A stretch of 64,000 nucleotides of DNA, taken from Sinorhizobium fredii USDA 257 (GTDB taxonomy: Bacteria; Pseudomonadota; Alphaproteobacteria; Rhizobiales; Rhizobiaceae). The position numbers and the translations under genes were made by a program. The notes beneath the pieces were generated by a model. That model was not told the DNA's origin. It did no database searches and was given only the letters and a program-made list of their open reading frames with translations. Positions 12,267-27,682 of this stretch are shown here, piece after piece (within the stretch, counting starts at the first letter, position 1; each line of letters opens with the position of its first letter). The stretch covers positions 5,675,001-5,739,000 of the forward strand of contig NC_018000.1 in assembly GCF_000265205.3 (NCBI RefSeq), in the 5' to 3' direction.

Positions 12267-12268
12267 AG

Positions 12269-12294: not shown

Positions 12295-12323
12295 AGAGCT
12301 AGGGTCGGCTGTTTTCTTTGGGT

Positions 12324-13211: not shown

Positions 13212-13257
13212 TTCAGATACTCCGGATTGTCGGGTTGCGGACTAGTGGGCGGCCGGC

Positions 13258-13332: not shown

Positions 13333-13349
13333 AATGTCGCTCCTTCGAG

Positions 13350-13412: not shown

Positions 13413-13443
13413 TGGTGAGCGAAATTGGTTTTGGAGGGAACGC

Positions 13444-13698: not shown

Positions 13699-13859
13699 TG
13701 AGGCGCACGGTCGGAAAGATCATCCTCGATAAGTGGTTTCCCGCGCGAAATCCCCTTGCAGGAGGCCTATTTCCGCCGTCCCGCATCGCGCCGGCATAGA
13801 GACACCGGAACAGCCTTGCCAGAGAGTTTTTCCGCTGTAGGAGTGGCTGAAAAGTGTAC

Positions 13860-14156
13860 GTAATTCCGTACACATTTCCGGGACATCTTCTCAACAAGCT
13901 CGGGGATGCCTTCGTCAACGACGGCCTTGGCTTGGCGGTAAGTTTCAGGGTTGCCAAAGCCCGCTTTGGAAGCAGCGACTTGGCGCGTCTCCGTGCCTTT
14001 CACTTCCGCAATATTTTGCGGATGTCCAATGTCCGTCCGCTGTCCTTGGCGCTTGCCAATCGCAGCCTCTACAGCGCGACCGATCGCCACCTTTTCGGAA
14101 GACTCTGTTTCCAAACAGAAAATGACTATGCCGTGGCAATGCCGGATCGATGCCGG
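13860..14156 (-). pseudogene. Remnant of a ParB-like phage/plasmid protein
   Basis: One minus frame reads CHGIVIFCLETESSEKVAIG, then GRAVEAAIGKRQGQRTDIG, then KGTETRQVAASKAGFGNPET and YRQAKAVVDEGIPELVEKM. This is the style of the middle of ParB/Spo0J-like proteins with an HTH found in alphaproteobacterial phages. Upstream the frame is closed by a TAG and no ATG/GTG start with a ribosome site exists. Downstream the frame runs into unrelated residues (SRKCVRNYVHF…). Both ends are missing, so I read it as a deleted remnant. Family assignment rests on pattern recognition only. Confidence 0.4.
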
Positions 14157-14190
14157 AGACTATGCCGAGCGTCACGCCTTGATTTCCGAT

Positions 14191-14219
14191 TTGATTAAAA
14201 TTCGATCGGTGCTTACATT
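14191..14219 (+). promoter_or_regulatory. Sigma70-type promoter of small RNA copy A
   Basis: TTGATT (14191-14196), 17-bp spacer, TACATT (14214-14219). It is placed about 7 bp before the predicted 5' end of the structured RNA; the homologous copy at 27565-27593 has TTGCCA-N17-TACACT at the same place. Confidence 0.6.
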
Positions 14220-14225
14220 GGAGGC

Positions 14226-14316
14226 ATTCATACGCCTCGCGTCGTTGACCACGGATGTACTGGCAGCGGCGTGAGGCGATGACGGAAGGTCGGGGCCAGC
14301 GTTCCCGGCCTTTTTT
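14226..14316 (+). ncRNA. Structured small RNA, copy A (inside the element)
   Basis: A promoter is followed by a 14-bp hairpin (14234-14247 with 14264-14277) around the 16-base loop ACCACGGATGTACTGG, and then a terminator hairpin GGTCGGG/CCCGGCC with six T (14288-14316). Copy B at 27600-27682 has the same loop, the same architecture and a stem that differs by pair-preserving changes (G-T to T-G, T-G to C-G). Multi-copy small RNAs of this size occur in rhizobia (the alpha-r8/MmgR-suhB family is a candidate), but I cannot confirm the family. The loop ATG also opens a short frame (MYWQRRE…) in both copies. Confidence 0.7.
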
Positions 14317-14506
14317 GTTTGTCTCTCCAAGCAAAGCGCCCGCTGATTAGACGGGCGCCGGAGTCGTCTCTTGGACTCTTCGCTCCTTTTTGGGGTCGCA
14401 TAGGGCATGTATGCGTAGAGCGATCTGATATAACGACTCAGTGCTCAAAAGGTTCCCCGAAGCGAGCTCCGCAATCCTTGGTCACAAGTGCTCGGGTCAA
14501 CCTGCG

Positions 14507-14695
14507 TCAATATTCGCCGATCATACCCATGATCTCGTCAGGCGACTCGTTAACCTGGAGCGTGACGCAGATCCCGCTTTTAGTCGCGCAGGTGACGAGA
14601 GTGGTGCGCCGCTGCCCCTCTATCCGCTGGAAGTGCGTAACGGTGTCCATGTTGACGAATATCGGTCCATTGCTGTCGTGCAATTCGAGCCACAT
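14507..14695 (-). CDS. Small conserved-looking hypothetical protein
   Basis: 62 residues starting MWLELHDSNGPIFVNMDTVT. AGAGGA lies eight bases upstream of the ATG. The pattern (beta strand, residues IFVNMDTVTHF, then TTLVTCATKSGICVTLQVNESPDEIMGMI) looks like a compact beta-rich domain of the FlbD-like or surface-binding kind seen in small phage proteins. It is monocistronic, convergent with nothing close. Function unknown. Confidence 0.6.
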   Translation of the reverse strand: MWLELHDSNGPIFVNMDTVTHFQRIEGQRRTTLVTCATKSGICVTLQVNESPDEIMGMIGEY

Positions 14696-14920
14696 GCATT
14701 GGTCCTCTCTGAGATAGCGTGTCTCAAGGATAGCACCAAAAGGGCCAGGGAAAGTCTCGTCTAGCGGCTCTGGAGGGCGGTTGGAGAAGGTTTCAGCGAT
14801 TTACCGATGGATGATGAGGAACGGCGGGAAATCGCGTCTATCCCGTTGAATTGAGCGGCCGGCATCTGCTGCCCGGAACATTCACTCAGCTTGGATGTTT
14901 TGTCTCTTTGGACGGGCCAC

Positions 14921-15106
14921 ATGAAGAAGCCCCACACAAACTTGGCGAGGCGTATCCGGCGGACAATGGCCACCGCTCGCAACGTCGATTTCCTCCGATC
15001 TCTTCCCGTGTTCAAAGTCAAGCCACAACTGCCCGCGAAGATAAGAGATCTCCTGCAGCGGTTACATGATGTGGAGAACTCAAGGAATGACCGCTCCCCT
15101 AAGTAG
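14921..15106 (+). CDS. Small basic hypothetical protein
   Basis: 61 residues, MKKPHTNLARRIRRTMATAR…, strongly basic at the N-terminus and helical (FKVKPQLPAKIRDLLQRLHDVE). The ribosome site is weak (GGACGGG), and an in-frame ATG ten codons earlier is possible. The frame shows a consistent amphipathic composition, whereas the overlapping minus-strand frame at 14761-15021 does not, so I prefer this strand. Unknown function. Confidence 0.4.
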   Translation: MKKPHTNLARRIRRTMATARNVDFLRSLPVFKVKPQLPAKIRDLLQRLHDVENSRNDRSPK

Positions 15107-15187
15107 GACGGGCGGGGGCCTTTTTTGTTGCCTGCTGCTCGCGAGGTGCCAATCTATGCAGTTGTCAGATGTGATGGGAGAGATGAC

Positions 15188-15415
15188 GTGGCGAGAAGCA
15201 AGGAACACATCGATAACCTGCTGAGATTGCGTCAGGAATTGGTCGAGCGTCGACGCGATGTTGCCAGCAATAGGGAGCCAGGGGAGATCGTGGCAACTGC
15301 AAAGGGCGTGATTGAATTTCAGATGAGCATCGAGGCGATCGATCGAGCCATAGACGACGAAAAAAGGCTGCACGGGGCTTCAGTAGCCCGTTTAGGCGAA
15401 TCCCCTAATTCTTGA
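15188..15415 (+). CDS. Small helical hypothetical protein
   Basis: 75 residues from GTG 15188, preceded by GGGAGAGA. The product is almost entirely helical (ARSKEHIDNLLRLRQELVER, then IEFQMSIEAIDRAIDDEKRL) with charged heptads, suggesting a coiled coil. Accessory gene of the element, family not recognised. Confidence 0.5.
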   Translation: MARSKEHIDNLLRLRQELVERRRDVASNREPGEIVATAKGVIEFQMSIEAIDRAIDDEKRLHGASVARLGESPNS

Positions 15416-15476
15416 CTGCAACGTGCACTATGAGAACCTTACGACCTCTTGGTTGTAGTGCGTTTGGGGCAAATGA

Positions 15477-15941
15477 ATGAATATTTCCACTGCTGCACTT
15501 CGCCTAATCGTTGCCTGTGTTGTCTGCCTTGTCGGCTTTGTCGGCTTTCTCGGCTTGGTCATGGTGATGATCGGCGAGTGCGATCGCCCCCTGCCTCCGC
15601 TACTGCTCAGTTTGACGGCCGACGACGAAGGCGACATGTGGACCCCCGGGTGTGGACTTCCCAAGGGGAAAAAACAGTCCTTCTCACCGGAGCTCACAAA
15701 ACGCTTGCAGAGGCTGTTTCCCGCCGGCAGTGATGCGGCCGCTGTAGAACGTGACCTTCAAGCCTTGGGGTTCAAAGTCGTTTCACCCTGCCCGAACGTG
15801 CCAAGTGCCCGTCTTGCGCAGTTTCTCCAAAAGGGATGTGCGTGGCCGATGAACGCCACGCTAGTTTGGCACCGGACCGAAGACGGTAAAGTGGTTGACC
15901 TCAGCGGACACGTATTTTTTAAGCCTGGCGGCGAGTACTGA
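15477..15941 (+). CDS. Membrane-anchored hypothetical protein
   Basis: 154 residues. Residues 7-32 form a hydrophobic helix (ALRLIVACVVCLVGFVGFLG…) that would anchor the protein in the inner membrane. The remainder is periplasmic or cytoplasmic, with a region FSPELTKRLQRLFPAGSDAAAVERDLQALGFKVV and a C-terminal beta segment WHRTEDGKVVDLSGHVFF. The latter resembles small anchored proteins of prophages. Its 3' end is convergent with the leftward operon (17 bp gap). Role unknown; possibly a lysogenic conversion gene. Confidence 0.6.
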   Translation: MNISTAALRLIVACVVCLVGFVGFLGLVMVMIGECDRPLPPLLLSLTADDEGDMWTPGCGLPKGKKQSFSPELTKRLQRLFPAGSDAAAVERDLQALGFKVVSPCPNVPSARLAQFLQKGCAWPMNATLVWHRTEDGKVVDLSGHVFFKPGGEY

Positions 15942-15958
15942 CTCTCTCGCGCCGACAG

Positions 15959-16582
15959 TCACGCCGCCGACCGCTCCTGCTGGTCTGCCTCCCTGGCGAG
16001 GCGCATGGCATTGACCGCGCGGAAATACGAAAGTCCCGCCTCCTGAAGATATCCCTTCCACTGACTAGGCCGAGGACGGGCCCGGGTCTTGAGCAGTTGG
16101 CGGCCGAGCTCGAGGCGCCGGTTGCGACTGTTCGTGACGCCGGCTCGCTGCCGCAGGCCGTATCCGGAATCCTTGTTCGACAGGCCATAGCCGGCCAGCG
16201 AAGAGAGGCGGGAATAAATCAGGGCCGCCAGGGCATGCCTGACCGGAGTGGTGCCCCTCAAATGGTCCGCGGCGAGCATGATCGAACCGAGTTCAAGACG
16301 GTCCCATAGTTCAAGCCACGCCGAAGCGTTTTCATCGATCCACTCAGAACAGACCAGAATCAGGTCGGAAATCCAAAGGCTGCATTCCTCGATAAGCCAT
16401 TGATTTCCCTCGGTCTCCGCCAGCGTGGAGACGACGAGCCTCAAATGGCCATCGCCATGCTTCTCGAGGATTCGGCGCATCGTCGCGACGGCTCGAGTCT
16501 GTCCCGGCTTCGGAAACTCGTTCGCCGGGATGATCTCGATTTCGAACTCGGCACAGATTGACCGGACCAAAGCTTCGGACAT
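15959..16582 (-). CDS. Hypothetical protein at the end of the terminase/tape-measure operon
   Basis: 207 residues, no membrane segment. The N-terminal half looks alpha/beta (RSICAEFEIEIIPANEFP, then GHLRLVVSTLAETEGNQWLI) and the rest helical (SLWISDLILVCSEWIDENAS). I do not recognise it as a tail or lysis protein. It follows the tape-measure gene by 2 bp and is the last gene of the long leftward operon. In a normal tail module the gene after the tape measure encodes a distal tail protein, but nothing in this sequence supports that. Confidence 0.6.
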   Translation of the reverse strand: MSEALVRSICAEFEIEIIPANEFPKPGQTRAVATMRRILEKHGDGHLRLVVSTLAETEGNQWLIEECSLWISDLILVCSEWIDENASAWLELWDRLELGSIMLAADHLRGTTPVRHALAALIYSRLSSLAGYGLSNKDSGYGLRQRAGVTNSRNRRLELGRQLLKTRARPRPSQWKGYLQEAGLSYFRAVNAMRLAREADQQERSAA

Positions 16583-16584
16583 GC

Positions 16585-19461
16585 CTATCTCCTGACTGCC
16601 TGTTGAACCGCACGGCGGAATTCATCGGCCATGGCCTGGCGGGAACGCGCGTCTGCCATGTCGCCGCCATTGAAGTTAACGCTGAGGTTGATAGGCCGCT
16701 CGGACTCGGCCGGCCGCTGGTCACCCGATCGGTCGTCGGAAACCTTGCTGTCGTCGACAATGATCACCCGCTCGCCCCGCTTCTTGAACAGTTCGACCTT
16801 CATGTCTTCACCCGGCATGATCTGGCCGCCGGTGGCGAAGCCTACCTGACGCTTCATCCGATCGAGCAAGGTCGGGGCATAGCCCGCGCCGCCGATCTGA
16901 AGCCGCTGCAGATAGGTTCCGCCCATGTAGCCCGGACCCTGGCTGACACCATTCAAAGCGCTGGTATTGCCGTTCAGCATGGCGTCGGCGACCGGATCGT
17001 ATCGTCCACCGCCCGTGCCGGCGAAGTTGCGCGCCGCGTTGAACGCGTTGAAATAGTAGGCCGCGTACGGGTCGAGATGGCTTTGGCCTCCCGAGCCGGA
17101 AGAACCACTGCTGTAGGAGCCGCGCGACGACGAATAGGCCGAGTCCGCACTGTAAGACGAAGATCCGCTCCCGATCGACTTCAAGGCCTTGAGACAAGCG
17201 ATCATCTCGAGGCTATCGCTCTCGAAAGTCTCGAAATAATCGGAGTGGACCCTGAGCTCCTGCACGATGTCGAAGAGATGCCCCTCCATGAGAGACAACG
17301 AGTCGCGTCCACCGGCCAGGATTGACGCCGTCGCCCCTGCACTGGAGACGTGGCCGGAACCGCCCATCGCAAGCAGTTCCGGCCCTTCCTCCCCGACCAA
17401 GTAAGTCCCGCCGGCGGTTACAGGGCCGCCAGCCGCACGGGCACCGCTGATCTGGTAACCGAGGGTCTGGTACATCGTGTCCATGTCGGACTGATCGACC
17501 AGATAGCTCCGCGTCCGGTAGGCTGGGGCAATTGCCGCGGCGGGGACCGGCGTGCCGTCGCTGTAGAAAGCCCCGCCATCCGACCGGGAAGCCTGTTGAA
17601 TGACACCAGCAAGCCGCAGTGCCTCCATCTGTCCGGCGACAAACTTGTCAATGAGAAGGTCAACCCAGGCAGCATCGCCGCCCATTGCCTTGAGGCTTTG
17701 GCGGATCATCTCGATTGCCTCATGCACGGTCTGCGCCGTAGCGCCGCCATCCTTCATCGCGGCGAAGAGCTTTTCGATATTGGTGGCGGCTTCCGCAATG
17801 GCTTCGGCCCCGGCCTTTCTGGTCACGCTGTCGCCGAAGATTTCAAACGGCGGGATATTCGCGGCTTCCTTCAGCGCCATGCTGATGTCTGCCAGATCCC
17901 TTTTTGCGGCGCGAAGCTTGGCACTCGACTGCTCCATGGCAGAGAGTTGCTTGAACTGGGCAATAGCGAGGCTCTGCGTCACGTCGATGGTGCCCGAGTA
18001 GGCCGCTTCCACGTTGGTGATCGCCGCGGAAAGGTCGTTGGCGCCTTTGGTGGCGGGTCCGAAAAGATCGGAGGAACCGGAAGAACCGCGATCGAGAAGG
18101 CGGTTCAGGTAATCCTGTCGCTCTCTTTTCTCGGCAATCCGTTTTTCGGCCTGCTTTTGGGATTCGTACAGAGCGAGATTGCCCATGTCGGCGCGGTTGG
18201 TCATGCCTTGCGACAAAAGCATGCCGTTGGGCCCGCGATCGTCGAACAGACGGCGGCGCTCGATCTCCGCTTCGCGGATGGCTTCGGCCAACTGCTTGAA
18301 GGGCTGCAAGGCTGCGACCGCTTCGGCCGCCATAGCCTTGAGCCCGCTGTTGTTCGTTGCTTGCCCGAATGCCTCCAGGTTCTGGATGAGCTCAAGCACA
18401 ACGGGCGAGCCGCGAAGAGCTTCCTTGTGAAGATCCCCGAGATCGACCTGCAACTGTTTGAACAGCGTCGTGCCGCGGAACTGACGAGCCGTGAGCCCAG
18501 CAAGATCGCGGTTGCTGTTGATCGCGGCGGTAATGGCGGCGCCGATCGATCCGTCATCGATGCCCTCGCGCAGCCGCTTGGAGAGCGCCGTGATGTTGTT
18601 TTCCAGGTTGAACGATGCGCCAGCGGTGCTGTCGCGACCGTATCGGCTGCGCTGGTCTGCTGCCTCGCCCCAGAGGTCGCGGACACGCGCAATGGCGTCC
18701 ACCTGTTGATCCAGCAGTTTTTCCATCGAGTCGGCGCCGCTTTCGGCCGTCGAGAAATACTGGAGCGCAGCCGCGCCAGCGCCGACAAAGGCCATCGTGG
18801 CTAGGGAGACCGGATTAATGAGCGATGCGAAAGCAGCCCCGAGCCCACTGACAACGCCTGTCGCTCCCATTGGGCCCAGGACAGCGGCCATCTGCGTGCC
18901 CTGCTGCAGAGCGATCTGGAGCGGCGACATGCCCATTGCCGACGTGATTGCGACGTCTTGAAGCTGTGCGGCTATGTTGGCGGAGTTGAAGTTCTGGCCG
19001 CCCATAGGAGCGGACGCATTCGCCGCCTTCACGGCAGCGCCGGCCGTCGTGGCCGACGTTTTCAGCCGCTCATACGTCATCCGTTCCCGATCGAGCGCGT
19101 TCGTCATCTGCTGCGCGCTGATGACACCCATCCGATGGGCACGCTGGATCTCGCTTACGGTTGCCTCGTATCGCTTACCGGCGGCGGCCAAGGGCTGATA
19201 CTTCATCGTCAGCCGTTCGACTTCCTCGCGGAAGGCGCGGACGTGCTCATCCTGTTGCACGAAGGGCTTGGCGGCCGGCGGCACCTTCTTCGTCTCGTCG
19301 CCGACCTTTTTGAGAGCATTGGCAAGAGCCCCAGCCGACGACGTGAGGCTATCCGCGGCCGATTCCATCTTTTCGGCCGCAGCGTACAGCTTCGACAGAT
19401 CGGCAGCGGCAGACGATGCCTGCGAGCTATCAATACGGAAACCCAGTGTCGCCTCGGTCAT
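16585..19461 (-). CDS. Phage tail length tape-measure protein
   Basis: 958 residues. The N-terminus MTEATLGFRIDSSQ is followed by long helical, Ala-rich, coiled-coil segments. The block NSANIAAQLQDVAITSAMGM and the following LQIALQQGTQMAAVLGPMG (near 160-195) is the signature of the prophage tail tape-measure family (TMP_2), and a hydrophobic stretch follows (SLATMAFVGAGAAAL near 225). The C-terminus PINLSVNFNGGDMADARSRQAMADEFRRAVQQAVRR is typical of the family. Such proteins set tail length in siphoviruses. No tail tube, chaperone or baseplate gene accompanies it, which is unusual. Next upstream gene 15 bp away. Confidence 0.88.
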   Translation of the reverse strand: MTEATLGFRIDSSQASSAAADLSKLYAAAEKMESAADSLTSSAGALANALKKVGDETKKVPPAAKPFVQQDEHVRAFREEVERLTMKYQPLAAAGKRYEATVSEIQRAHRMGVISAQQMTNALDRERMTYERLKTSATTAGAAVKAANASAPMGGQNFNSANIAAQLQDVAITSAMGMSPLQIALQQGTQMAAVLGPMGATGVVSGLGAAFASLINPVSLATMAFVGAGAAALQYFSTAESGADSMEKLLDQQVDAIARVRDLWGEAADQRSRYGRDSTAGASFNLENNITALSKRLREGIDDGSIGAAITAAINSNRDLAGLTARQFRGTTLFKQLQVDLGDLHKEALRGSPVVLELIQNLEAFGQATNNSGLKAMAAEAVAALQPFKQLAEAIREAEIERRRLFDDRGPNGMLLSQGMTNRADMGNLALYESQKQAEKRIAEKRERQDYLNRLLDRGSSGSSDLFGPATKGANDLSAAITNVEAAYSGTIDVTQSLAIAQFKQLSAMEQSSAKLRAAKRDLADISMALKEAANIPPFEIFGDSVTRKAGAEAIAEAATNIEKLFAAMKDGGATAQTVHEAIEMIRQSLKAMGGDAAWVDLLIDKFVAGQMEALRLAGVIQQASRSDGGAFYSDGTPVPAAAIAPAYRTRSYLVDQSDMDTMYQTLGYQISGARAAGGPVTAGGTYLVGEEGPELLAMGGSGHVSSAGATASILAGGRDSLSLMEGHLFDIVQELRVHSDYFETFESDSLEMIACLKALKSIGSGSSSYSADSAYSSSRGSYSSGSSGSGGQSHLDPYAAYYFNAFNAARNFAGTGGGRYDPVADAMLNGNTSALNGVSQGPGYMGGTYLQRLQIGGAGYAPTLLDRMKRQVGFATGGQIMPGEDMKVELFKKRGERVIIVDDSKVSDDRSGDQRPAESERPINLSVNFNGGDMADARSRQAMADEFRRAVQQAVRR

Positions 19462-19476
19462 GCCCGATCCCCTCGC

Positions 19477-20346
19477 TTAGGCTGCGTTGAGCTCGGGGTC
19501 GTTGTAAACGAGCGCCCCGGTATCCGAATGGTATTCGTAAGCCCTGGTGTTGAGGGCCTCAATGCGCCGCTCGTTGAGTGCCGATCTGCGCTGTTCCTCA
19601 TCCGAGGGCTTGAGCGCCGCGGATCGCGCGAATGATTCGCCCGTCTGCTGCTTCTGCAGTCGCTCGGCCTCAACCTGGCGATCCACTTCAACGGAGACGT
19701 GATCGAACCAGTCCCGGAAGGTTCTATCCCGCTGGTCGAACATCAGGCACTTAGCCATGTCCATCAGCGTGACCTGGACCACGTTGTTTGCGATCGTGAC
19801 CGCCTCGCTGACGTCATCAATCTGCTTCAACACAGGCGCGTGATGGATCTCGATAAGCTTTTCCTGGACGTCATCCATGAACTTCTTGTCGGCGCCGATC
19901 ATTGCCGGCGGCACTTCATAGGCGGCCAGAAGGACCTCTTCCGGAGCGTCTTTCGCCATAAGCACGGCTGCAAGCTCGCCACGATTGAGCGATTTCAACC
20001 AGTTACGGACATCCATCCGCAGGATTGCGCCGGCTACATCCGACTTGTCGGGTTTAGGTACCTTCAGATTGGCCTTGGACTGGTCAAAGCCTCGACGGAA
20101 ATCGTCGACGACGTGACCGGCCTTGCGGATGACTGGTGCGGCATCTTTGCCGGCGAACGCCTTCATCTCTTCCATCAAACCGGCGGGAGAGAATCGGTTG
20201 GACTTCCGCAGATCGGCAAGCTTGGTCTCGAGCCGTTCGATGGCCATGATGGGCGCGTCGACCGAGGCGGTGATGCGGTTCATGCCGACATCCTTGCGCC
20301 ATTCGTCGCGGTATCGGCTGGTGATCATATGGTAGCGGCTATTCAT
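19477..20346 (-). CDS. Hypothetical protein between terminase and tape measure
   Basis: 289 residues, soluble, largely helical; the middle KAGHVVDDFRRGFDQSKANL and the C-terminal region rich in charged residues (VEAERLQKQQTGESF) suggest an elongated structure. No known phage motif is visible. The position, between a small 98-residue gene and the tape measure, is where portal and head genes would be expected; it has neither portal nor capsid features. Conserved unknown is the fairest call. Confidence 0.6.
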   Translation of the reverse strand: MNSRYHMITSRYRDEWRKDVGMNRITASVDAPIMAIERLETKLADLRKSNRFSPAGLMEEMKAFAGKDAAPVIRKAGHVVDDFRRGFDQSKANLKVPKPDKSDVAGAILRMDVRNWLKSLNRGELAAVLMAKDAPEEVLLAAYEVPPAMIGADKKFMDDVQEKLIEIHHAPVLKQIDDVSEAVTIANNVVQVTLMDMAKCLMFDQRDRTFRDWFDHVSVEVDRQVEAERLQKQQTGESFARSAALKPSDEEQRRSALNERRIEALNTRAYEYHSDTGALVYNDPELNAA

Positions 20347-20358
20347 GGGCGTGCTCCT

Positions 20359-20655
20359 TTAGGCGGATACGTTGCTGATGACCTGATCGGCCAATGACTT
20401 CACCTGGCCACGCCAGTCCGGATAGTAGGTGCCGAACTGGGGATGACGGAGCGACAGAGGCACGTCGTCGGCGATGCCGTGAAACGTCTGATAAAGGCCG
20501 AGTTGTCTCCCTGAGACATTGCGATTCATAAGCGCCACGTCGTAAGCGGCGAGCTCGATCAGCGAATCCTGGAGTTCGGCGATTGCAGCCGAGTATCGGG
20601 CGCCGGCAGCGGTCCGAGCGGTCTGCAGTTCTTCCAAGTTGGTCGGTATTGCCAT
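20359..20655 (-). CDS. Small hypothetical protein after terminase
   Basis: 98 residues: helical N-terminus LEELQTARTAAGARYSAAIAELQDSLIELAAYDVALM, then an aromatic region LYQTFHGIADDVPLSLRHPQFGTYYPDW. It starts 6 bp after the terminase stop and precedes the 289-residue gene by 12 bp. The length and helical start could fit a head-tail joining protein, but no motif supports it. Confidence 0.55.
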   Translation of the reverse strand: MAIPTNLEELQTARTAAGARYSAAIAELQDSLIELAAYDVALMNRNVSGRQLGLYQTFHGIADDVPLSLRHPQFGTYYPDWRGQVKSLADQVISNVSA

Positions 20656-20661
20656 GTCGGT

Positions 20662-22110
20662 TTACCTCGCGGTTGAGTGGTAGAAGTTTCGTTGAGTGCC
20701 GGCGGAACCGTCATAGGTGCCGAACAAGGCAGTCGGAGCTTTATTCACTTCGGCGCAAAGCCAGACCGCGCCGGCCACGCTGTTGGCCAGGTCGTCATGC
20801 CCTCCCGGCGCGTGGTCGATTGACTCCTTGCCGCCACGGGAGACGCGGCGCTCGAGGCCGACGATCTGGTTTACGAGGGCCGGACTGTCGAGGAGATCGG
20901 CCTTGCCGCTATTCAGGTTCGGCAGGAGTTCGATGTACAGGTCGGTTCGGGGCTTATCGCTGAGGCGATAGCCGATCCCATGCTTGCGGAAATGCTCCCG
21001 CGGGAACTCCCCGCCGTAACGGTCGCCATGCACTTCCGTGATGCCGTAATCCTTCAGGGTCTTGCAGAACTCGGCGATCGTCGCCTCGGGAGAGAAAGGC
21101 GGTTTGCGTTCCCGGGTCAGGTCGTGAACGATCCGACCGTCCTCTCGGTGGGCAATGGCCATCGTAAAGCTGTCGTTTGAGCCGCCCGAGGGGTCGACAA
21201 AGGCCTTGTACTTCGTGCCGCGGACGAACGGACGCTCATGGACACCGGGCGACACACAAGCCTCGACGACTTCGCGGGTAACGAATGCCTCGATGTCCGA
21301 CCGGAACTCGGCCATGTATTCGGCCATTGCCGATGCATGATCACGCTCGAGCGCACGATCTATGTGCGATTGAGGGATGCTGGGGTTCATTTCCCGCGTT
21401 GTCGCCTTCCAGACGAGCGGAGTACCGTCCTTGCCATAGAACCGACGAAAGGCATCCCAGAGAGCCCCTTTTCGAGCGTAGGGCGACGACATGCACAACA
21501 GCATCGCGTTCGGGATTGTCGCCATGCCAGGCCGGATAGCGTCCAAGATCGCGAAATCGGGCTCGGCCGCATCGTCGGTTCGCCAAAAGGCGATCTCATC
21601 GCACAGAACGGCGACATAGGTGTAGCCGCGGCTGGACCGGAATGAAGCTGTGCCGACTTCGATGCTGACCGCATTGTCGAGATCGAAGCCGTTGGCGGTC
21701 TCACGCGCCTTCATTTCCTTCAGCATTTCGATGCCATTCAGCATCGCGGCGATATAGCGAAGGATCACCCGGGCCTGTTTCTTGTCCGCAGCGATGACCA
21801 TGATCGTGCCGCGCTCACCCGGTGCCAGATAAGGCCGGTAGTCGAAGAAACACGCCAGGAAGACGGCCACGAGAGCGGCTACGAACGACTTGCCGCCGCG
21901 ACGACCAATCACCAGCCAAGCCTCGCTATTCGCTCCCGTGGGCCGCTCCTGCCGGCCTGTGTGATTCTTGTAAACGGCGAACTGCTCATCGGTCATCGCC
22001 AAACCAAAGAGCGCTGCCAAGAATGCGAACCACGCGCCGAAACTGTCCCGCTTACCGCGGAACCAAGGCTCGAATAGCTCTGGGTGATCAATCGCCTGGA
22101 GGATGTTCAA
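20662..22110 (-). CDS. terL: Phage terminase large subunit
   Basis: 482 residues. The ATPase has an adenine-binding/Walker A region GRRGGKS (residues 69-75) and Walker B VAVLCDE (166-172), followed by the motif III-like MLLCMSSPYARKG. The nuclease half carries acidic residues at FVDPSGG (near 305), HGDRYGGEF and HDDLANSVAGA near the end. The enzyme cuts concatemeric DNA and pumps it into a procapsid. The start is TTG, overlapping the upstream gene's stop as TTGA, so it is translationally coupled. Presence of an intact packaging motor without any capsid gene in the element is notable. Confidence 0.9.
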   Translation of the reverse strand: MNILQAIDHPELFEPWFRGKRDSFGAWFAFLAALFGLAMTDEQFAVYKNHTGRQERPTGANSEAWLVIGRRGGKSFVAALVAVFLACFFDYRPYLAPGERGTIMVIAADKKQARVILRYIAAMLNGIEMLKEMKARETANGFDLDNAVSIEVGTASFRSSRGYTYVAVLCDEIAFWRTDDAAEPDFAILDAIRPGMATIPNAMLLCMSSPYARKGALWDAFRRFYGKDGTPLVWKATTREMNPSIPQSHIDRALERDHASAMAEYMAEFRSDIEAFVTREVVEACVSPGVHERPFVRGTKYKAFVDPSGGSNDSFTMAIAHREDGRIVHDLTRERKPPFSPEATIAEFCKTLKDYGITEVHGDRYGGEFPREHFRKHGIGYRLSDKPRTDLYIELLPNLNSGKADLLDSPALVNQIVGLERRVSRGGKESIDHAPGGHDDLANSVAGAVWLCAEVNKAPTALFGTYDGSAGTQRNFYHSTAR

Positions 22111-22496
22111 GCGGCAGCCCCCTGGCCGATGATGTCTGCAAGGCTGCGCTTCGGTTTCTGCCCACGGGGCTTGATGTCGAGTTGCTTCACCAGCCGTGCC
22201 TGCAGGTTGTTCAACCGCACAAGGTTCTCGGGATCGACGGACTCACCCCGCACGATGGCGGCCTGCAGTTTCTCGCTTTCGACCGTAACGGCGGCCACCT
22301 GTCGGATCAGTGCGCGCTGCGGTTCATTGAGGGAAGCAGCCCCGCCCAGGTCCTCGGCGAAGCTGATGCACAGGTCACGGAAGCGACGGCCAAGTGCGCT
22401 CCGGTTGTCCACGCCTTCTAGCAGCCACGATCCGTTTGAAATCGCAGAGCGATTGCGAGTGGAGTTGCTATCAATCTGGGTTCGATTTGTGCTCAT
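22107..22496 (-). CDS. Small protein upstream of terminase (candidate small terminase subunit)
   Basis: 129 residues from ATG 22496; a TTG at 22532 would add 12 residues. A polar N-terminus precedes helices (RFRDLCISFAEDLGG, NEPQRALIRQVAAVTVESEKLQAAIV, VRLNNLQARLVKQLDI) and a basic tail RGQKPKRSLADIIG. Position directly before terL with a 4-bp overlap is the place of terS, and the helical-bundle plus basic tail is compatible, but I see no clear HTH. The ribosome site is weak. Confidence 0.55.
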   Translation of the reverse strand: MSTNRTQIDSNSTRNRSAISNGSWLLEGVDNRSALGRRFRDLCISFAEDLGGAASLNEPQRALIRQVAAVTVESEKLQAAIVRGESVDPENLVRLNNLQARLVKQLDIKPRGQKPKRSLADIIGQGAAA

Positions 22497-22600
22497 AAAC
22501 CCAGAAATGACTGGGTTTCGTCGGCACTTCAATGGCGGGAATAGGCCCTACGGATAGGCCCGTATCAACACGTAGAGATACGTTTCACGAGGCTCTGATT

Positions 22601-23251
22601 CTACTGCTGGTCAATGGTACGGTCAAGGATACGCTTCACCGTCATCGCCTGCAGCCCGTGGGTTTCGCCGATCTTCCGGAAGCTCTCACCCTTGGCCCTG
22701 GCGTCCCTCATTTCCTGAAGAGAGGCCTGCTGGAGGGGGTTTTTCACGAGCCTGCCATCTATGACGTCGTACCCATAGGGCGCCTTGCCACCGCCGTAAA
22801 TTCCCTGTGCAGCAAGGTGCCTTTTCACTTCCCGGATACGCTCGCGGATGCGCTCCCGCTCGTTCTCGGCCACGGCAGAGAGGATGGTGAAGACGAGCTT
22901 GGAGATACCGTTGCCGGTGACGTCGCCGCCGAGGTCGATCATAACCAGTCCGACGCCCTGAGCCTTCAATTCCTCAAGCGTACCAAGGGCATCCGAGGCA
23001 GAACGGAACATGCGATCAAGCTTGGGAGTGATGACCATATCACCCTTCTCGACGACGCCCAGGAGACGCTTGCCCTGCGGCCGATCGGCAAGAGGAACCG
23101 AGCCTGAGACGCCGCCCTCGACGAAGATCTCCGAGACTTGCCAGCCCTGCATCATCGCGTAGCCGGTGATCTTGGCCTTCTGGGTTTCCAAGCTGTCGCC
23201 GTTCGCTGCCTGCTCGCTCGTCGACACTCTGACGTAGCCGAAAACCTTCAT
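22601..23251 (-). CDS. Small serine recombinase (resolvase/invertase family)
   Basis: 216 residues. The N-terminal catalytic domain is complete: FGYVRVSTSEQAANGDS with the nucleophile serine, then LDRMFRSASDALGTLEELKAQGVGLVMIDLGGDVTGNG, and the helix AENERERIRERIREVK. The C-terminal half is a DNA-binding HTH (KGESFRKIGETHGLQAMTVKRIL). It resembles Tn3-type resolvases in size. It may resolve multimers or invert a segment; a candidate site lies just upstream (23267-23316). It is in the same direction as the packaging genes but separated from them by about 100 bp. A second recombinase in addition to the tyrosine integrase is unusual for a small element. Confidence 0.88.
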   Translation of the reverse strand: MKVFGYVRVSTSEQAANGDSLETQKAKITGYAMMQGWQVSEIFVEGGVSGSVPLADRPQGKRLLGVVEKGDMVITPKLDRMFRSASDALGTLEELKAQGVGLVMIDLGGDVTGNGISKLVFTILSAVAENERERIRERIREVKRHLAAQGIYGGGKAPYGYDVIDGRLVKNPLQQASLQEMRDARAKGESFRKIGETHGLQAMTVKRILDRTIDQQ

Positions 23252-23266
23252 TGCTGTATCCCCTTG

Positions 23267-23316
23267 TGTAACGTCGCTTTAGCTATGTTACATTTTAGGC
23301 AATGTTACAGGCCTAA
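23267..23316. promoter_or_regulatory. Repeat cluster upstream of the serine recombinase (candidate res site)
   Basis: TGTAAC (23267-23272) is inverted to GTTACA at 23287-23292, which recurs directly at 23304-23309. TTAGGC/GCCTAA (23295-23300, 23311-23316) brackets the last copy. Resolvase genes normally lie beside their own recombination/operator sites. Assignment is inference. Confidence 0.35.
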
Positions 23317-23378
23317 GCAATGGGAATTCGTCCGGAATTCTGGACGATCTCCGGGGAGAGGGCAGAAAATACAGGCGG

Positions 23379-23732
23379 TTAGGCCTTTTTGTCCTCATGG
23401 CATCCAAAGACATAAACCCGGATTAGCTTAGGGTCTGCCTGCAGCTTTCCAATGATGTCATCGACGAATTTCTGCACCCTTCCTTCAGCTTCCGAAGGGT
23501 CCTTACCCACTTCAATCAAGTCTCTCTTGCCTTCCTGGTAGTGACGGTCTGCCTTCACCCTCTGGGCTGCTTCTGAGACCTTGTTGCCTGCGTGCCTGTA
23601 GGCCTCCGCTAAAATCCGGTGCACGGCAGTGCAGTGGAAGTAATGGTACCTTGGGATGCGTCGCTTCTGTTCCTGTGCAGAAACAACGGTCGGAAGGGAA
23701 AGTATGAGAGCCGCAACAAGCTGAAGTTTCAT
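23379..23732 (-). CDS. Exported hypothetical protein
   Basis: 117 residues with a clear signal peptide (MKLQLVAALILSLPTVVSAQ, cleavage after VSA). The mature part has two conserved-looking cysteines (FHCTAVHRILAEAYRHAG and VYVFGCHEDKK) that could form a disulfide, and a helical middle. It lies between the recombinase and the HTH gene, same strand. A periplasmic accessory protein of the element; function unknown. Confidence 0.6.
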   Translation of the reverse strand: MKLQLVAALILSLPTVVSAQEQKRRIPRYHYFHCTAVHRILAEAYRHAGNKVSEAAQRVKADRHYQEGKRDLIEVGKDPSEAEGRVQKFVDDIIGKLQADPKLIRVYVFGCHEDKKA

Positions 23733-23761
23733 ATCGGATTAAGCCCCTTGCCCCGAAGACC

Positions 23762-23989
23762 CTAGTCAGCCCTTTTCTTCGCACCTCGTCTAGCCTGTTC
23801 TTTCTCCTGATCCTGTACCCACTGCAGGAGAGTGCTCTTACGGGCTGCCACTGTTCTGCCTATCCGGAAGGTCGGAAGGTTGCCTTGCTCGTCATGCCAC
23901 GAGATCTGTCTGGGAGACATCCCGAGGAAGCGGGCAATAGCCTTGGTGCCGGTGAGGATATCGGAGTCGGCTGGCGCGTGAATGTTCAT
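23762..23989 (-). CDS. Small MerR/AlpA-like DNA-binding protein (excisionase candidate)
   Basis: 75 residues from ATG 23989, which overlaps the upstream stop (ATGA). The core DILTGTKAIARFLGMSPRQISWHDEQGNLPTFRIGRTVAARKSTLLQWVQDQE is a winged-helix of the AlpA/excisionase type: helix-turn-helix, a wing GNLPTFRIG, and a final helix. Such proteins direct excision or activate integrase genes. The assignment as excisionase is inferred from size and context. Confidence 0.65.
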   Translation of the reverse strand: MNIHAPADSDILTGTKAIARFLGMSPRQISWHDEQGNLPTFRIGRTVAARKSTLLQWVQDQEKEQARRGAKKRAD

Positions 23990-24177
23990 GCGGCCTCCGC
24001 TTCGTCTCGGGGTTGCGTTGCACAAGCGTTGCACGGACCGGTGATATTCTGCTCCAGCCATTGCCGATATCGATCGAGGGCGGGGGCGATGTCTTCCCCC
24101 GTCGACCGTCTAAAGGCTTCCCGGGTCGAATTATGGATGATTGCCCATCCGAGGGCGGCGAGGTGCTTGTCTGTCAT
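23986..24177 (-). CDS. Small hypothetical protein
   Basis: 63 residues (MTDKHLAALGWAIIHNSTREAF…, C-terminus with two cysteines in NACATQ). ATGA overlaps on both sides place it in the coupled operon. No family recognised. Confidence 0.55.
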   Translation of the reverse strand: MTDKHLAALGWAIIHNSTREAFRRSTGEDIAPALDRYRQWLEQNITGPCNACATQPRDEAEAA

Positions 24178-24488
24178 GCGGCACCCCGCGGGTCATGGCT
24201 GCCGGCGCCGGAGCTCTGATAGGTCAGGCGAAGCACCTCCTGCTCGACCTTCGTCCAGAACGCATCGATCTGCTGATCTCGTTCATGCGGCGGAATCCCC
24301 AGCCGATCGAAATGGGCGGTCAGACCGTCGGTGACCTGCTTCGCGTAGTATCCGGCATGGCGCTCGGTGGTCTTCTCGGCGAGCTTTCTCGCAACATCCC
24401 GGATCTTGCCGACGCGATTGGCCATCGGGAAGGCGATCAGCTTGCAGGGAGGCTGCCAAGCGAAGAGCGGAAGATCGCGATCACGCAT
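24174..24488 (-). CDS. DUF6074-family protein
   Basis: 104 residues. The N-terminus DLPLFAWQPPCKLIAFPMANRVGKIRDVARKL matches the DUF6074 pattern (LF-W-PP-K-I-FP---R-GKI), a rhizobial phage- and ICE-associated family of unknown role. The C-terminus is helical (ERDQQIDAFWTKVEQEVLRLTYQ). Overlaps the downstream gene by ATGA. Located directly after the iteron region. Confidence 0.75.
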   Translation of the reverse strand: MRDRDLPLFAWQPPCKLIAFPMANRVGKIRDVARKLAEKTTERHAGYYAKQVTDGLTAHFDRLGIPPHERDQQIDAFWTKVEQEVLRLTYQSSGAGSHDPRGAA

Positions 24489-24539
24489 GCTGCACCTCCG
24501 GACCGCCTATGCCGGCGCATGATGTGGCTAGACTAGATA

Positions 24540-24691
24540 CTGTGTGCTGTGGGCATACCATGATGGTCGAAAAACAGGGCTTATCGTGTGTCATGGGCAT
24601 ACACTCCAGCCTTTATGGTGTGCTCTCGGCATACCATTGCGTCGTCGATGGTGTGCTTAGGGCATACCAATGGTGTGCTCTCGGCATACCG
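24540..24691. repeat. Five helically phased iterons (candidate replication origin)
   Basis: Five 21-bp copies of TGGTGTGC-N4-GGCATACCA, itself an imperfect inverted repeat, start at 24540, 24584, 24616, 24649 and 24671. The offsets are 44, 32, 33 and 22 bp, close to multiples of 11, so all copies face the same side of the helix. Copies 3-5 lie inside the 3' end of the initiator-like gene, copy 2 begins right after its stop, and copy 1 lies beyond. Iterons within an initiator gene are known from lambda O. Confidence 0.8.
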
Positions 24692-25102
24692 TTGTTTTTC
24701 TTCCGGCTTCCACCGCATGAATTCCTTCGTCGCTACCAGCGAGCGCTCGGGAACGTCGACAGGGTATTCCGTCAAGATCCAGCGGGTGGATCGCCGCCCT
24801 GGCGCCCGGTTCTTCCATTGAAATGAACCGCGTGTCGCGACTTTGATGAAGCCTTTCTCGATCAATCCCTTGAAGGCCGCGGCGACAGGTTTGTTGCTGC
24901 AGTTTATGAGCACTGCCGCTTCACGATGCGAAAGAGCGATGTCACCGTTGTTCTGACCGTTATGGAGCTGCTTAAGCTCGAAATAGAGGGCCCTCTCAAA
25001 CGGAGTGGTCGCTTTCCAGGCCGCGGAGTTCAGGAGCCAGACATGCATCTGGAAGAACCGATCTGACGGGGCAGTTCGCTTATGCCTCTTTCCCTTGCTC
25101 AT
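24581..25102 (-). CDS. Replication initiator-like protein (winged helix, lambda O-type organisation)
   Basis: 173 residues. A basic start KGKRHKRTAPSDRFFQMHVWLLNSAAWKATTPFERALYFELKQLHNGQNNGDIALSHREAAVLI followed by AAAFKGLIEKGFIKVATRGSF is the winged-helix layout of phage/plasmid replication proteins. The C-terminal 30 residues are encoded by the iterons and show the repeat at protein level (VCPKHTID, VCREHTIK, VYAHDT). ATGA overlap with the upstream gene. Role as origin-binding initiator is inferred from fold plus iterons; there is no helicase loader or primase nearby, so host proteins would have to be recruited. An alternative is a transcription regulator. Confidence 0.6.
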   Translation of the reverse strand: MSKGKRHKRTAPSDRFFQMHVWLLNSAAWKATTPFERALYFELKQLHNGQNNGDIALSHREAAVLINCSNKPVAAAFKGLIEKGFIKVATRGSFQWKNRAPGRRSTRWILTEYPVDVPERSLVATKEFMRWKPEEKQRYAESTPLVCPKHTIDDAMVCREHTIKAGVYAHDTR

Positions 25103-25284
25103 CCGAACACTCTCCTAAGCATCCGGAACCGATCGGACATCGCGGCCGCCTCGGTTGCCTCGAGGGCGCTAAGATTGAACCGCTCCCGCAAGGCAGGGAT
25201 GATTGGCCGCGGTGGCTGCGCTTGATCGGCGAGCCATTGAGCGGCCAGGGTGACGCTTTCGTTGTCGGGGTGGTAGCAGGTCAT
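25099..25284 (-). CDS. Small hypothetical DNA-binding-like protein
   Basis: 61 residues from ATG 25284 (MTCYHPDNESVTLAAQWLAD…), which overlaps the upstream stop by ATGA; the longer frame to 25383 lies inside the neighbour. The second half (IPALRERFNLSALEATEAAAMSDRFRMLRRVF) reads like a helix-turn-helix. Just upstream of the initiator-like gene and coupled to it. Confidence 0.55.
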   Translation of the reverse strand: MTCYHPDNESVTLAAQWLADQAQPPRPIIPALRERFNLSALEATEAAAMSDRFRMLRRVFG

Positions 25285-25562
25285 GCGGCCTCGCTTTCCT
25301 TGAAATCCTGCTCCACGGAGCCGTTTTTCATCTTCGCGGCGGTGTAGGGATGGATACCCGCTCGAAATGCCCACAGTGGGCAATTTACCGCCTCACACGC
25401 GCGGACTTCTGAGGGCTGGCCGCTGCTGCAGTCGAGGCACTTCAGCCTGATTGCCGCCATCGGAGACATCTGCTTATGCCCCGCAGACTTTGCGACGGCT
25501 GCGGTCGGCGGCCAGGTTGCGGCCAGGTCGGTTCGATTGATGGGTGTGGGATTCGTCTTCAT
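25281..25562 (-). CDS. Cysteine-cluster (zinc-binding-like) phage protein
   Basis: 93 residues. The core SPMAAIRLKCLDCSSGQPSEVRACEAVNCPLWAFRAGIHPY contains four cysteines in a CxxC…C…C arrangement that is recurrent in alphaproteobacterial phage and island proteins, presumably binding zinc. The N-terminus is disordered. ATGA overlaps at both ends. Function unknown. Confidence 0.65.
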   Translation of the reverse strand: MKTNPTPINRTDLAATWPPTAAVAKSAGHKQMSPMAAIRLKCLDCSSGQPSEVRACEAVNCPLWAFRAGIHPYTAAKMKNGSVEQDFKESEAA

Positions 25563-25786
25563 GCCGCATCTCCATGCATTTCGCGACGGAAGACGCGGAG
25601 GCTCAGAGCCCAGCGGCGGCCGATCTTTCGGGCGCCAGGGATTTGGCCCTGTTGCAGCATGTAGAAGACGCGGCGAAGGTCCGGTTCATCCACAGCCTCG
25701 GCAATCGCATGGACGCCATAGACGATCTCGGGATTGGGTTTTGTCTTGCTCGCGGAGGCGGACTCGTGAATAACAGATGTCGGCAC
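25559..25786 (-). CDS. Helix-turn-helix protein heading the leftward operon
   Basis: 75 residues if the GTG at 25786 (GGGAGAT upstream) is used; a TTG at 25918 would give 119 residues with a low-complexity Ser/Thr-rich extension. The C-terminal part (IVYGVHAIAEAVDEPDLRRVFYMLQQGQIPGARKIGRRWALSLRVFRREM) is a MerR/excisionase-like wing-helix fold: helix, turn, helix, then KIGRRW as the wing. It is the first gene of the coupled series and faces away from the integrase. A recombination directionality factor or regulator is likely. Confidence 0.6.
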   Translation of the reverse strand: MPTSVIHESASASKTKPNPEIVYGVHAIAEAVDEPDLRRVFYMLQQGQIPGARKIGRRWALSLRVFRREMHGDAA

Positions 25787-26123
25787 GACGGTGGATCTCC
25801 CATCGTTGGTGTTGGAAACGGTGGCGGGGCTGTTCGAAGTCGCCAAACCAGAGGCAGCCCTGCCGCTTTCTTCGGTACAGAATCTCAGTGATTTGTACGT
25901 GGATGTAATTAGCCGCAAAAATAGACGCTAAAGAAAGGGGTTTCGCAGGCTTTTCCCAAATGCAGGCGCCTCATTTTACTTAATGCATTGATTTTTTTGC
26001 ATATTCTTTCATGACGGCCTGTGCGTAACGGGCGCGACTTTGCGCGACTTTGCCGTTGATCTGTCCCCGTTCTGCTTGCAGTATTTTTTCCATAAGTCGA
26101 AAACTCAACGTTGGACCCTGATC

Positions 26124-27359
26124 ATGTCCGTCCGTAAGCGCACCTGGACCACCCCGAAGGGCGAGGAGAAATCCGCCTGGGTCGTCGACTACCTCGATGC
26201 AGCGGGCAAGCGCCGGCTGAAGACCTTCACGAAGAAGAAGGATGCCGATGCATTCGCCGCTACGGCAAAGGTAGAGATCCGGGAAGGCGTTCACGTTGCC
26301 GACAGTGCCAGCGCCACAGTAGAGGAAGCCGGTAAGCTGTGGCTCGCTAGCGCCCGCGCCTCCGGTCTCGAGCGCGCGACGATCGATGACTATGAGCGCC
26401 ACCTTCGAATGCACATCGTTCCCTTCCTCGGCGCATCGAAGCTGCCGGCCCTGTCGATTGCGAAGGTGAGGGCTTTTGAAGACCAGTTGCGCGAAGCTGA
26501 CCGATCACCGGCCATGGTCAAAAAGATCTTGGTGAGCCTCGGCTCACTGATTGCTGACGCCCAGGAGCGCGGACTCGTCGCCCGGAGCGTCGTAAGGGAC
26601 ATGAAAGGACAGCGCGGCTCTGGTGAGAAACGGCAGGAGAAGCGCCAGAGAGGGCGATTAAAGATCGGCGTCGACATCCCGGCCCGTGATGAGGTCAAGG
26701 CGCTGATCGGCGTGATTTCGGGCCGCTGGAGGCCTCTTTTCCTGACGGCGGCCTTCTGTGGCTTCAGAGCTTCCGAGCTCCGCGGCCTCCGATGGCAGGA
26801 TATCGATTTCGACAAGGGACAAATTCGCGTTCACCAACGGGCGGATCGGTTCAACGATATCGGCCGGCCCAAGTCTCACTCAAGCGAGCGGACGGTCCCG
26901 GCGCCGCCAATGGTGATCAACGCCTTGCGTGAGTGGAGACTGTCATGCCCGAAACGCGAAACCGGCAAGGTCGATGACGCGGGCCAGAAGGTTAAGGCTC
27001 TTGAACTCGTATTCCCGAACGGTCAGGGCAAGGTTGAGCAGTTGAACAACATTCTTCGGCGCGGGCTTCATCCGGCCTGGATCACTGCCGGCGTCGCTAT
27101 TGACACTGGAGAGGTTGACGAGAAGGGAAAGCCCGTGCTTGCGCCGAAATATACCGGGATGCACTGCCTTCGCCATTTCTTCGCCAGTTGGTGCATCAAC
27201 CGCAAGGAAGACGGCGGACTCGGCCTGACACCGAAAATCGTTCAAGAGCGCATGGGACACTCGACGATCGCGCTCACCATGGACCGCTATTCGCACTTAT
27301 TTCCGAAGGACGATGACGCCGACGAAATGGCAGCAGCTGAGCGCGCCTTTCTCGCGTGA
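26124..27359 (+). CDS. Tyrosine site-specific integrase
   Basis: 411 residues from ATG 26124 (MSVRKRTWTTPKGEEKSAW…). A three-stranded arm-binding domain leads (WVVDYLDAAGKRRLKTFTKKKDADAFAA), followed by a core-binding SAM-like domain (EAGKLWLASARASGLERATIDDY) and the catalytic domain. The catalytic set is complete: R215 (GFRASELRGLRW), H347/R350 (MHCLRHFFASW), H379 (ERMGHSTIALT) and nucleophile Y389 (MDRYSHLF). It lies 60 bp from attR, transcribed towards it, the standard place. It catalyses insertion into the tRNA-Arg gene. Confidence 0.95.
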   Translation: MSVRKRTWTTPKGEEKSAWVVDYLDAAGKRRLKTFTKKKDADAFAATAKVEIREGVHVADSASATVEEAGKLWLASARASGLERATIDDYERHLRMHIVPFLGASKLPALSIAKVRAFEDQLREADRSPAMVKKILVSLGSLIADAQERGLVARSVVRDMKGQRGSGEKRQEKRQRGRLKIGVDIPARDEVKALIGVISGRWRPLFLTAAFCGFRASELRGLRWQDIDFDKGQIRVHQRADRFNDIGRPKSHSSERTVPAPPMVINALREWRLSCPKRETGKVDDAGQKVKALELVFPNGQGKVEQLNNILRRGLHPAWITAGVAIDTGEVDEKGKPVLAPKYTGMHCLRHFFASWCINRKEDGGLGLTPKIVQERMGHSTIALTMDRYSHLFPKDDDADEMAAAERAFLA

Positions 27360-27360
27360 C

Positions 27361-27383
27361 TGCAACATGGATGCGACATGGAA
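27361..27383. repeat. Right arm-type repeats beside attR
   Basis: Tandem TGCAACATGGA and TGCGACATGGAA immediately after the integrase stop, matching the pair at 12243-12266. See the left arm-type repeats. Confidence 0.6.
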
Positions 27384-27419
27384 GGCTCTACGCCTGGCAG
27401 CACAAGGCTTTAAAGCGGT

Positions 27420-27465
27420 TTCCTAATCTGGGGGTCGCGCGTTCGAATCGCGCCGGGATCACCAT
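27420..27465 (+). repeat. attR: 46-bp copy of the tRNA-Arg 3' half
   Basis: Identical to 12070-12115. It contains only the anticodon loop to CCA portion, so it is not a functional tRNA; it marks the right boundary of the element and the resumption of chromosomal sequence. Confidence 0.95.
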
Positions 27466-27564
27466 TTGTTACGTCTCTTCCTCGGGCGATCAGCCGTGAG
27501 GCGCCCGGTGGAAGCTCTCTGGCTGAAGCTGTACTCACCAAACACCCTCACCCTTTTGATCGTC

Positions 27565-27593
27565 TTGCCACTGTAACAATCGCCGCCTACACT
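27565..27593 (+). promoter_or_regulatory. Sigma70-type promoter of small RNA copy B
   Basis: TTGCCA, 17-bp spacer, TACACT, ending 7 bp before the predicted RNA start. Same relative position as the promoter of copy A. Confidence 0.65.
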
Positions 27594-27599
27594 GCCCTT

Positions 27600-27682
27600 A
27601 CTGTCCCTCTCGCCGCTGACCACGGATGTACTGGCAGCGGCGGGAGGTGGCGATGAAAGGTCGGGCTGAGCCCGGCCTTTTT
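27600..27682 (+). ncRNA. Structured small RNA, copy B (chromosomal, next to attR)
   Basis: A 13-bp hairpin (27606-27618 with 27635-27647) carries the loop ACCACGGATGTACTGG, identical to copy A, followed by a terminator GGTCGGGC-tga-GCCCGGCC and five T (27659-27682). Conserved loop, conserved promoter spacing and pair-preserving stem changes against 14226-14316 argue for a selected RNA. It ends 12 bp before a convergent small gene. Target unknown; the family may be alpha-r8/MmgR-like. Confidence 0.75.

Follow-up and report, generated by a model that had tools for sequence, protein, structure and literature searches.

What do two small RNAs with one and the same hairpin loop do on either side of a phage attachment site in Sinorhizobium fredii USDA 257, and does the copy on the mobile element imitate the one on the chromosome beside it? 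We addressed these questions in a window of 64,000 nt (assembly GCF_000265205.3, NC_018000.1, positions 5,675,001-5,739,000), whose own numbering is used below for the two RNAs, copy A and copy B. A first-pass annotation of the letters had described them as a host RNA and an element-borne mimic or sponge. We find that both are members of the ar35 family, and that their common loop belongs to a constant tip that recurs in the 3' untranslated regions (UTRs) of cold-shock (csp) mRNAs and on many viral contigs. Our preferred reading, held tentatively, is that the tip is a protein-recognition hairpin, which both the host and its phages use as an mRNA 3' UTR element and as a decoy RNA.

Two RNAs with a common hairpin tip

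The features of the two RNA loci, all on the + strand, are the following.

14191-14219, +: promoter of copy A, TTGATT-17-TACATT, found by inspection and missed by the consensus scan
14226-14316, +: copy A, prophage-borne ar35-type RNA (RF02346 52.5 bits, fold z -6.7), ends predicted
14228-14282, +: main hairpin of copy A, from the fold
14247-14264, +: conserved 18-nt tip of copy A, GACCACGGATGTACTGGC, from the sequence
14284-14314, +: intrinsic terminator of copy A, from terminator prediction
27565-27593, +: promoter of copy B, TTGCCA-17-TACACT, which passes the consensus scan
27600-27682, +: copy B, resident chromosomal ar35-type RNA beside attR (RF02346 40.1 bits, fold z -6.9), ends predicted
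27602-27652, +: main hairpin of copy B, from the fold
27618-27635, +: conserved 18-nt tip of copy B, from the sequence
27655-27681, +: intrinsic terminator of copy B, from terminator prediction

Each copy is predicted to give an RNA of about 85-90 nt that consists of one long hairpin followed by an intrinsic terminator. These two-hairpin folds bear out the proposal of two structured small RNAs, with energies of -53.2 kcal/mol for copy A and -55.8 kcal/mol for copy B that none of 200 shuffles equals. The identical hairpin loop already noted extends to the 18 nt of GACCACGGATGTACTGGC, and the compensatory stem change is found eight pairs outward of this 18-mer, where copy A has a G-U pair and copy B a U-G pair. 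The terminators claimed for both copies are also predicted. What the two RNAs expose is the common loop and hardly anything else, and by that loop they would be expected to have the same partners. The promoters are of the sigma70 type. For copy B the 17-bp-spacer promoter of the first-pass annotation holds in the scan; that of copy A stands by inspection, while the consensus scan of its upstream stretch called no promoter. Its sigma70-type promoter suggests that copy A may be expressed without stress control.

Copy A matches the Rfam family ar35 (RF02346, SmrB35/SmelB053) above the gathering cutoff of 45 bits. Copy B falls under this cutoff (E 2e-6 in 301 nt) and is a sub-threshold relative, taken as such because its tip, stem type and terminator match those of copy A. 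The earlier suggestion of a suhB/MmgR RNA fails, as RF00519 is absent among the matches at E ≤10 at both loci. The second hairpin of RF02346, with its GGAUGUA loop, and the 3' terminator are present in both copies. The first (5') hairpin of the model has no counterpart: in copy A it falls on the promoter with mismatched pairs, and in copy B it is mostly skipped in the alignment. This 5' hairpin is described as the most variable domain of the family and as missing at times (PMC3927594; here and below, statements with a PMC number refer to the parts of those papers available to us). We regard membership of both copies in the ar35 family as firm.

Searches with RF02346 and with the 15-mer CCACGGATGTACTGG give nine family copies in this genome, so copies A and B are no special pair. 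Seven carry the exact 15-mer and two differ from it by one change (GGAUGGAC); a decayed copy lies at C1:3056090. A partial match at C1:592475-592528 (L029 about 9876-9929) was left out of the count; it shares CGGATGTAC in its loop, yet belongs to a different, terminator-like hairpin between luxR-type and Mrp-type genes. Three ar35-type copies lie clustered within 2.4 kb (L025 8787, 10339 and 11216; C1:5489486-5491929). Two of them have the variant loop GGAUGGAC. Upstream of all three lies a common block, GATCGGCGG, that contains no sigma70-like pair.

The covariance search beyond this locus, set beforehand as the refuting test, detected family members throughout an order. Each of the 33 genomes of the genus yields family matches for both copies, and in the search of 297 genomes of the order, 88 contain ar35 matches at E ≤0.001, with 38 above the cutoff.

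Conservation of the tip

The tip has a 9-nt loop, CGGAUGUAC, closed by three base pairs (CCA/UGG), together with a bulged A; the sequence of the stem below it is free. We read 76 places picked by covariance-model matches (7 from this genome, 29 best-scoring and 40 middle-scoring). The exact 18-mer is present in 60 of them, 13 show one to three changes, and the tip is absent from three.

A set of 252 distinct 34-mers shows stem pairing far above shuffles. Entry to this set required at most three mismatches and GGA.G.AC, which means that six loop letters are constant by design. Covariation is found at the outer pairs and at the inner A-U pair, which is G-C in three examples; the bulged A and the closing pairs are almost as constant as the loop. 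For 63 sequences hand-chosen for diversity the covariation score is 0.396, compared with 0.168 in shuffles, none of 500 of which reached it, and with no more than 0.214 when slid. Double-change cells number 138 against 58.3 in shuffles. The number of pairs with any double change (9 against 8.0, reached in 15 of 500 shuffles) is less telling. G-U pairs occur among the covarying pairs.

The tip in cold-shock 3' UTRs

Three of the nine copies in this genome follow csp genes (C1:1383733, C1:3112252 and C1:4600622). At 64.4 bits, C1:4600622 scores higher against ar35 than any other place in the genome, from which it follows that the Rfam model cannot separate small RNAs from csp 3' UTRs. Among 122 genome matches, 67 are csp-type by a loose test (a csp motif in the 330 nt upstream), and a stricter test leaves 55. 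Sampling 337 genomes across the class, we found the exact 18-mer in eight outside the order, and there all nine tips follow a csp open reading frame (ORF). Tandem double hairpins were also seen (L304 1431 and 1500; L241 1291 and 1377, minus-strand positions), and the L304 pair follows a csp ORF.

Copies on viral contigs and plasmids

We identified the exact 18-mer in at least 120 IMG/VR viral contigs, and the reversed-word control gave none. These are probably nearly all, because two narrower scans returned only known contigs. By the loose test 49 of the viral matches are csp-type, 38 of which the stricter test keeps, and 71 are not, at least two of these being cut off close to the contig start (L084, L139). 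Some viral contigs carry a csp gene and its 3' UTR hairpin together (e.g. L060, L066, L140), and tape measure, terminase and endolysin genes are among the neighbours of csp-type viral copies.

We compared the neighbouring ORFs with PHROGs, covering 58 of the 68 upstream, 55 of the 67 downstream together with three overlapping ones, and 80 of the 128 around csp-type copies. Among the families matched are those of head, portal, tail, terminase, endolysin, primase, helicase and antiterminator genes. The tip follows the major head protein gene in L069 and the head-tail adaptor gene in L166. In L105, a 436-kb viral contig, it lies between phage tRNA genes (522-539) on a 9-bp flanking stem, directly 3' of tRNA-Arg in an array of 11 tRNA genes in 4.5 kb. 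Of 50 viral contigs, 32 have over 5 kb of sequence on either side of the tip, and 14, including the 436-kb one, match the phrog_2 large-terminase profile, which is one of several kinds. The many phage copies suggest that phages use a host RNA-recognition signal.

In two viral contigs the tip and its stem stand at the 5' end of an ORF (L083 9743-9760 and L095 5311-5328); the L083 ORF matches phage integrase, and the hairpin appears to lie inside its coding sequence. Another contig, L130, has two copies, one of which is the nearest viral relative of copy A. Phage 16-3 is 76% identical to part of L137, and the primase of RHph_X2_26 is 49% identical to that of L165. Searches of INPHARED gave nothing significant with copy A (three weak Arthrobacter matches, E 5) or with one viral-type copy. 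A-type copies match 191 of 72,556 plasmid records, chiefly from Rhizobium and Sinorhizobium.

A general-stress promoter motif upstream of viral copies

The EcfG-type (general-stress) promoter motif of R. etli is GGAAC-N16-CGTT (PMC3892343). Of 63 distinct upstream stretches of viral non-csp copies, 22 contain the pattern GGAAC-N16-19-GTT, where shuffles predict 0.34. It occurs in none of 32 viral csp, one of 52 host non-csp and none of 67 host csp stretches. With a spacer of exactly 17 it is found in 21 of the 63, always 24-25 or 42-43 nt before the tip; the background rate of GGAAC-N17-GTT in the same loci predicts 0.34. A group of 23 related viral copies was picked by stem end and not by promoter, and 20 of them have GGAAC near the same place; in the remaining three (L111, L158 and L177) an ORF ends 15-16 nt upstream. 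Among 19 rows picked by promoter, 18 spacers are distinct, with a mean identity of 0.56.

The prophage and the origins of the two copies

The element that holds copy A has the following features.

12038-12114, +: tRNA-Arg (CCT), the integration target, from ARAGORN
12070-12115, +: left att core, an exact 46-bp repeat
12070-27465, strand not assigned: cryptic prophage of 15.4 kb in tRNA-Arg(CCU), from the 46-bp att repeats, phage-gene matches and the tRNA
26040-27359, +: tyrosine integrase of the prophage (PHROG phrog_1 3.9e-59, PF00589)
27420-27465, +: right att core (attR), an exact 46-bp repeat

Profile matches identify a tyrosine integrase, a large terminase, a tape measure protein, a resolvase and a helicase-loader-like protein. 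The scan covered 12 of the element's ORFs and revealed neither a head nor a portal gene, and we read the element as a cryptic, decayed prophage. The placement of one copy on a mobile element and of the other 135 bp from attR thus stands; the start of copy B is 135 bp past the attR core. Elsewhere in the window, 58798-58915 (+) matches another known alphaproteobacterial small RNA, Rfam ar14 (RF02344), at 72.1 bits against a cutoff of 58.8.

The two copies are not each other's closest relatives, being equal at only 73 of 90 positions. The closest relative of copy A is at C1:5234696, 0.45 Mb away (129 of 142 aligned positions equal), which is also its best match besides itself across the 33 genomes of the genus. 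Among 324 compared copies, the second-nearest to copy A is in L130, and the best match of copy B is in another viral contig, L155. Genomes of the genus hold closer relatives of copy B, up to 96% identical, and the closest are its own orthologues. We therefore rejected the pairing of a host original with an element mimic.

Seven genomes of the genus hold copy B at 89% or more. In three of these an intact tRNA-Arg(CCT) precedes the tip by 140-373 nt, which leaves no space for an element, and in the other four no tRNA was found in the stretch examined. From the arrangement in these relatives, copy B is a resident of the tRNA-Arg site, and the prophage was inserted between the two. Other copies in relatives of the genus are close to tRNA-Thr, tRNA-Lys or tRNA-Ser genes (L404, L406, L407, L408, L380, L388). 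A query with the prophage tape measure found no relative.

What reads the tip?

We propose that the tip in csp mRNA 3' UTRs is recognised in trans by an RNA-binding factor, which is probably a protein, and that stand-alone copies would work in trans by competing for it. Copy A would then be a prophage accessory RNA, one of many phage-borne copies, and some of the others, with an EcfG-type promoter motif, may be made as decoys under stress. We infer the factor and the competition for it from four observations: the tip is fixed, SmrB35 shows no Hfq signal in co-immunoprecipitation (PMC2848018), the loop complement is not enriched (see below), and the same tip occurs in csp 3' UTRs and in small RNAs. 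The sponge idea of the first-pass annotation thus survives in part. Copy A does not mimic its neighbour; given the many viral copies, however, the idea of a decoy gains ground, in the form of a decoy that would occupy the reader of the loop.

Protein-binding hairpins such as phage coat-protein operators usually look like this, with an invariant loop, a bulged A and closing pairs that are conserved, and a stem that varies freely. A further-reaching version of the proposal is that the bulged A, CCA/UGG and CGGAUGUAC loop form an ancient alphaproteobacterial signal, read by a putative protein that governs csp mRNAs and repeatedly taken over by phages, behind head genes, among tRNAs and as EcfG-switched decoys. 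We consider this version doubtful.

Several observations weigh against a shared factor and its decoys. The missing Hfq signal of SmrB35 may mean low affinity (PMC2848018). Since the contigs were scanned with the 18-mer itself, the tip is constant there by design. Many ORFs beside the viral copies matched no phage family, and for 18 of the 50 contigs an end lies no more than 5 kb from the tip, which leaves host flank possible. The EcfG-bearing viral copies are mostly one related group and not 21 independent events. GGAAC-N16/17-CGTT was not found upstream of copies A and B or of five other copies in this genome, and a search for this promoter type plus the tip in 397 genomes of the order gave 0 matches, so that the association is not replicated outside viral contigs. 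Finally, 18 viral terminase relatives of the prophage have no tip in the stretches examined, by which we rejected the hairpin as a fixed part of the prophage lineage. Phage 16-3 and RHph_X2_26 likewise have no tip within five substitutions that keep GGAT. From these absences the hairpin is an accessory.

It is unlikely, in our estimate, that the RNAs act as antisense regulators, with the 9-nt loop CGGAUGUAC as seed for mRNAs that contain GUACAUCCG-like sites and with copies A and B raising the dose. The family is catalogued as trans-acting small RNAs (PMC3927594, PMC7143759), and the loop is the main exposed stretch. However, the loop complement GTACATCCG has 27 sites in this genome, seven of which are family copies, compared with 56 for the reversed word, and it is the rarer of the two in 12 of 12 genomes searched; the reversed word is a crude control, as codon use alone may shift counts. 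The 15-mer, allowed up to two mismatches, occurs at 15 sites, of which nine are family copies, and its reversed word at 20. Full-loop antisense targets were rejected since GTACATCCG is not in excess; these counts cover the full loop and the 15-mer, with seeds of 6-7 nt outside their scope. Antisense action also fits poorly with the missing Hfq signal, with a bulged A and closing pairs that are nearly as constant as the loop, and with the frequent use of the tip within csp 3' UTRs.

We think it less probable still that the hairpin is a 3'-end stability element, which slows or steers decay beside a terminator, the stand-alone RNAs being interceptors of the decay machinery or by-products. The positions after csp genes, after the phage head (L069) and head-tail adaptor (L166) genes and in the tRNA array (L105) would suit such a role, and an 'interceptor' proposal has been published (PMC3927594). 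A stability element has no need of a fixed loop, yet the tip hardly varies in the places picked by covariance.

A repeat or integration hot spot acting as DNA (REP-like or att-like, with no RNA function) could account for many scattered copies, some beside tRNA genes, but is very improbable given the G-U pairs among the covarying pairs, the promoter upstream and terminator downstream, and the S. meliloti member seen as a transcript (PMC2780559). A CsrA/RsmA-type sponge, suggested by CANGGANG (CACGGAUG) within the hairpin loop of the tip, which matches the CsrA consensus, is scarcely credible and was rejected, as a PF02599 search, in which E. coli, B. subtilis and T. maritima among the controls matched, found no CsrA in this genome and detected it in only one of 61 genomes of the family.

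Relation to known RNAs

The S. meliloti RNA behind RF02346 (SmrB35 = SmelB053) has the same loop, terminator and multi-copy habit as copies A and B, whereas these lack the 5' hairpin, copy A is on a prophage and copy B is below the cutoff. The rhizobial csp 3' UTR hairpins (PMC3927594), of which this genome has three, share the tip and terminator layout; in contrast, copies A and B have their own promoters, and no csp gene is seen before them. GsrN, an EcfG-controlled small RNA of Caulobacter, resembles one group of viral copies in its EcfG-type promoter. However, it acts on katG via a C-rich loop (PMC5869019), and an EcfG promoter motif is absent from copies A and B. The likeness to CsrB/RsmZ-type sponges is the idea of a repeated loop that titrates a protein, whereas no CsrA was found in this host.

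The family, its copy number, its GGAUGUA loop motif, the csp relatives, nearby mobile elements and a transcript are already on record (PMC2780559, PMC3927594). The S. meliloti member is a discrete 139-nt RNA (PMC2780559), moderately raised by luteolin and undetectable in nodules (PMC2780559, PMC3927594), and a second copy on pSymB has been described (PMC2573895). Decoy RNAs have been proposed in a form directed at RNA decay (PMC3927594). We found no account of these hairpins on phages in the literature searched, outside which most subscription journals lie. As far as that literature shows, the residence on a prophage and on viral contigs, the positions after genes for phage structural proteins and tRNAs and the group with an EcfG-type promoter are new.

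These hairpins have been in print since 2007-2011, with no demonstrated function in the literature examined. The viral contigs, the placement after csp and structural genes and the stress-promoter group turn them into a testable question, namely what factor of the host recognises the loop. Should this be a protein, a regulator common to rhizobia and other Alphaproteobacteria would be expected, and phages would be exploiting the stress response of their hosts through RNA.

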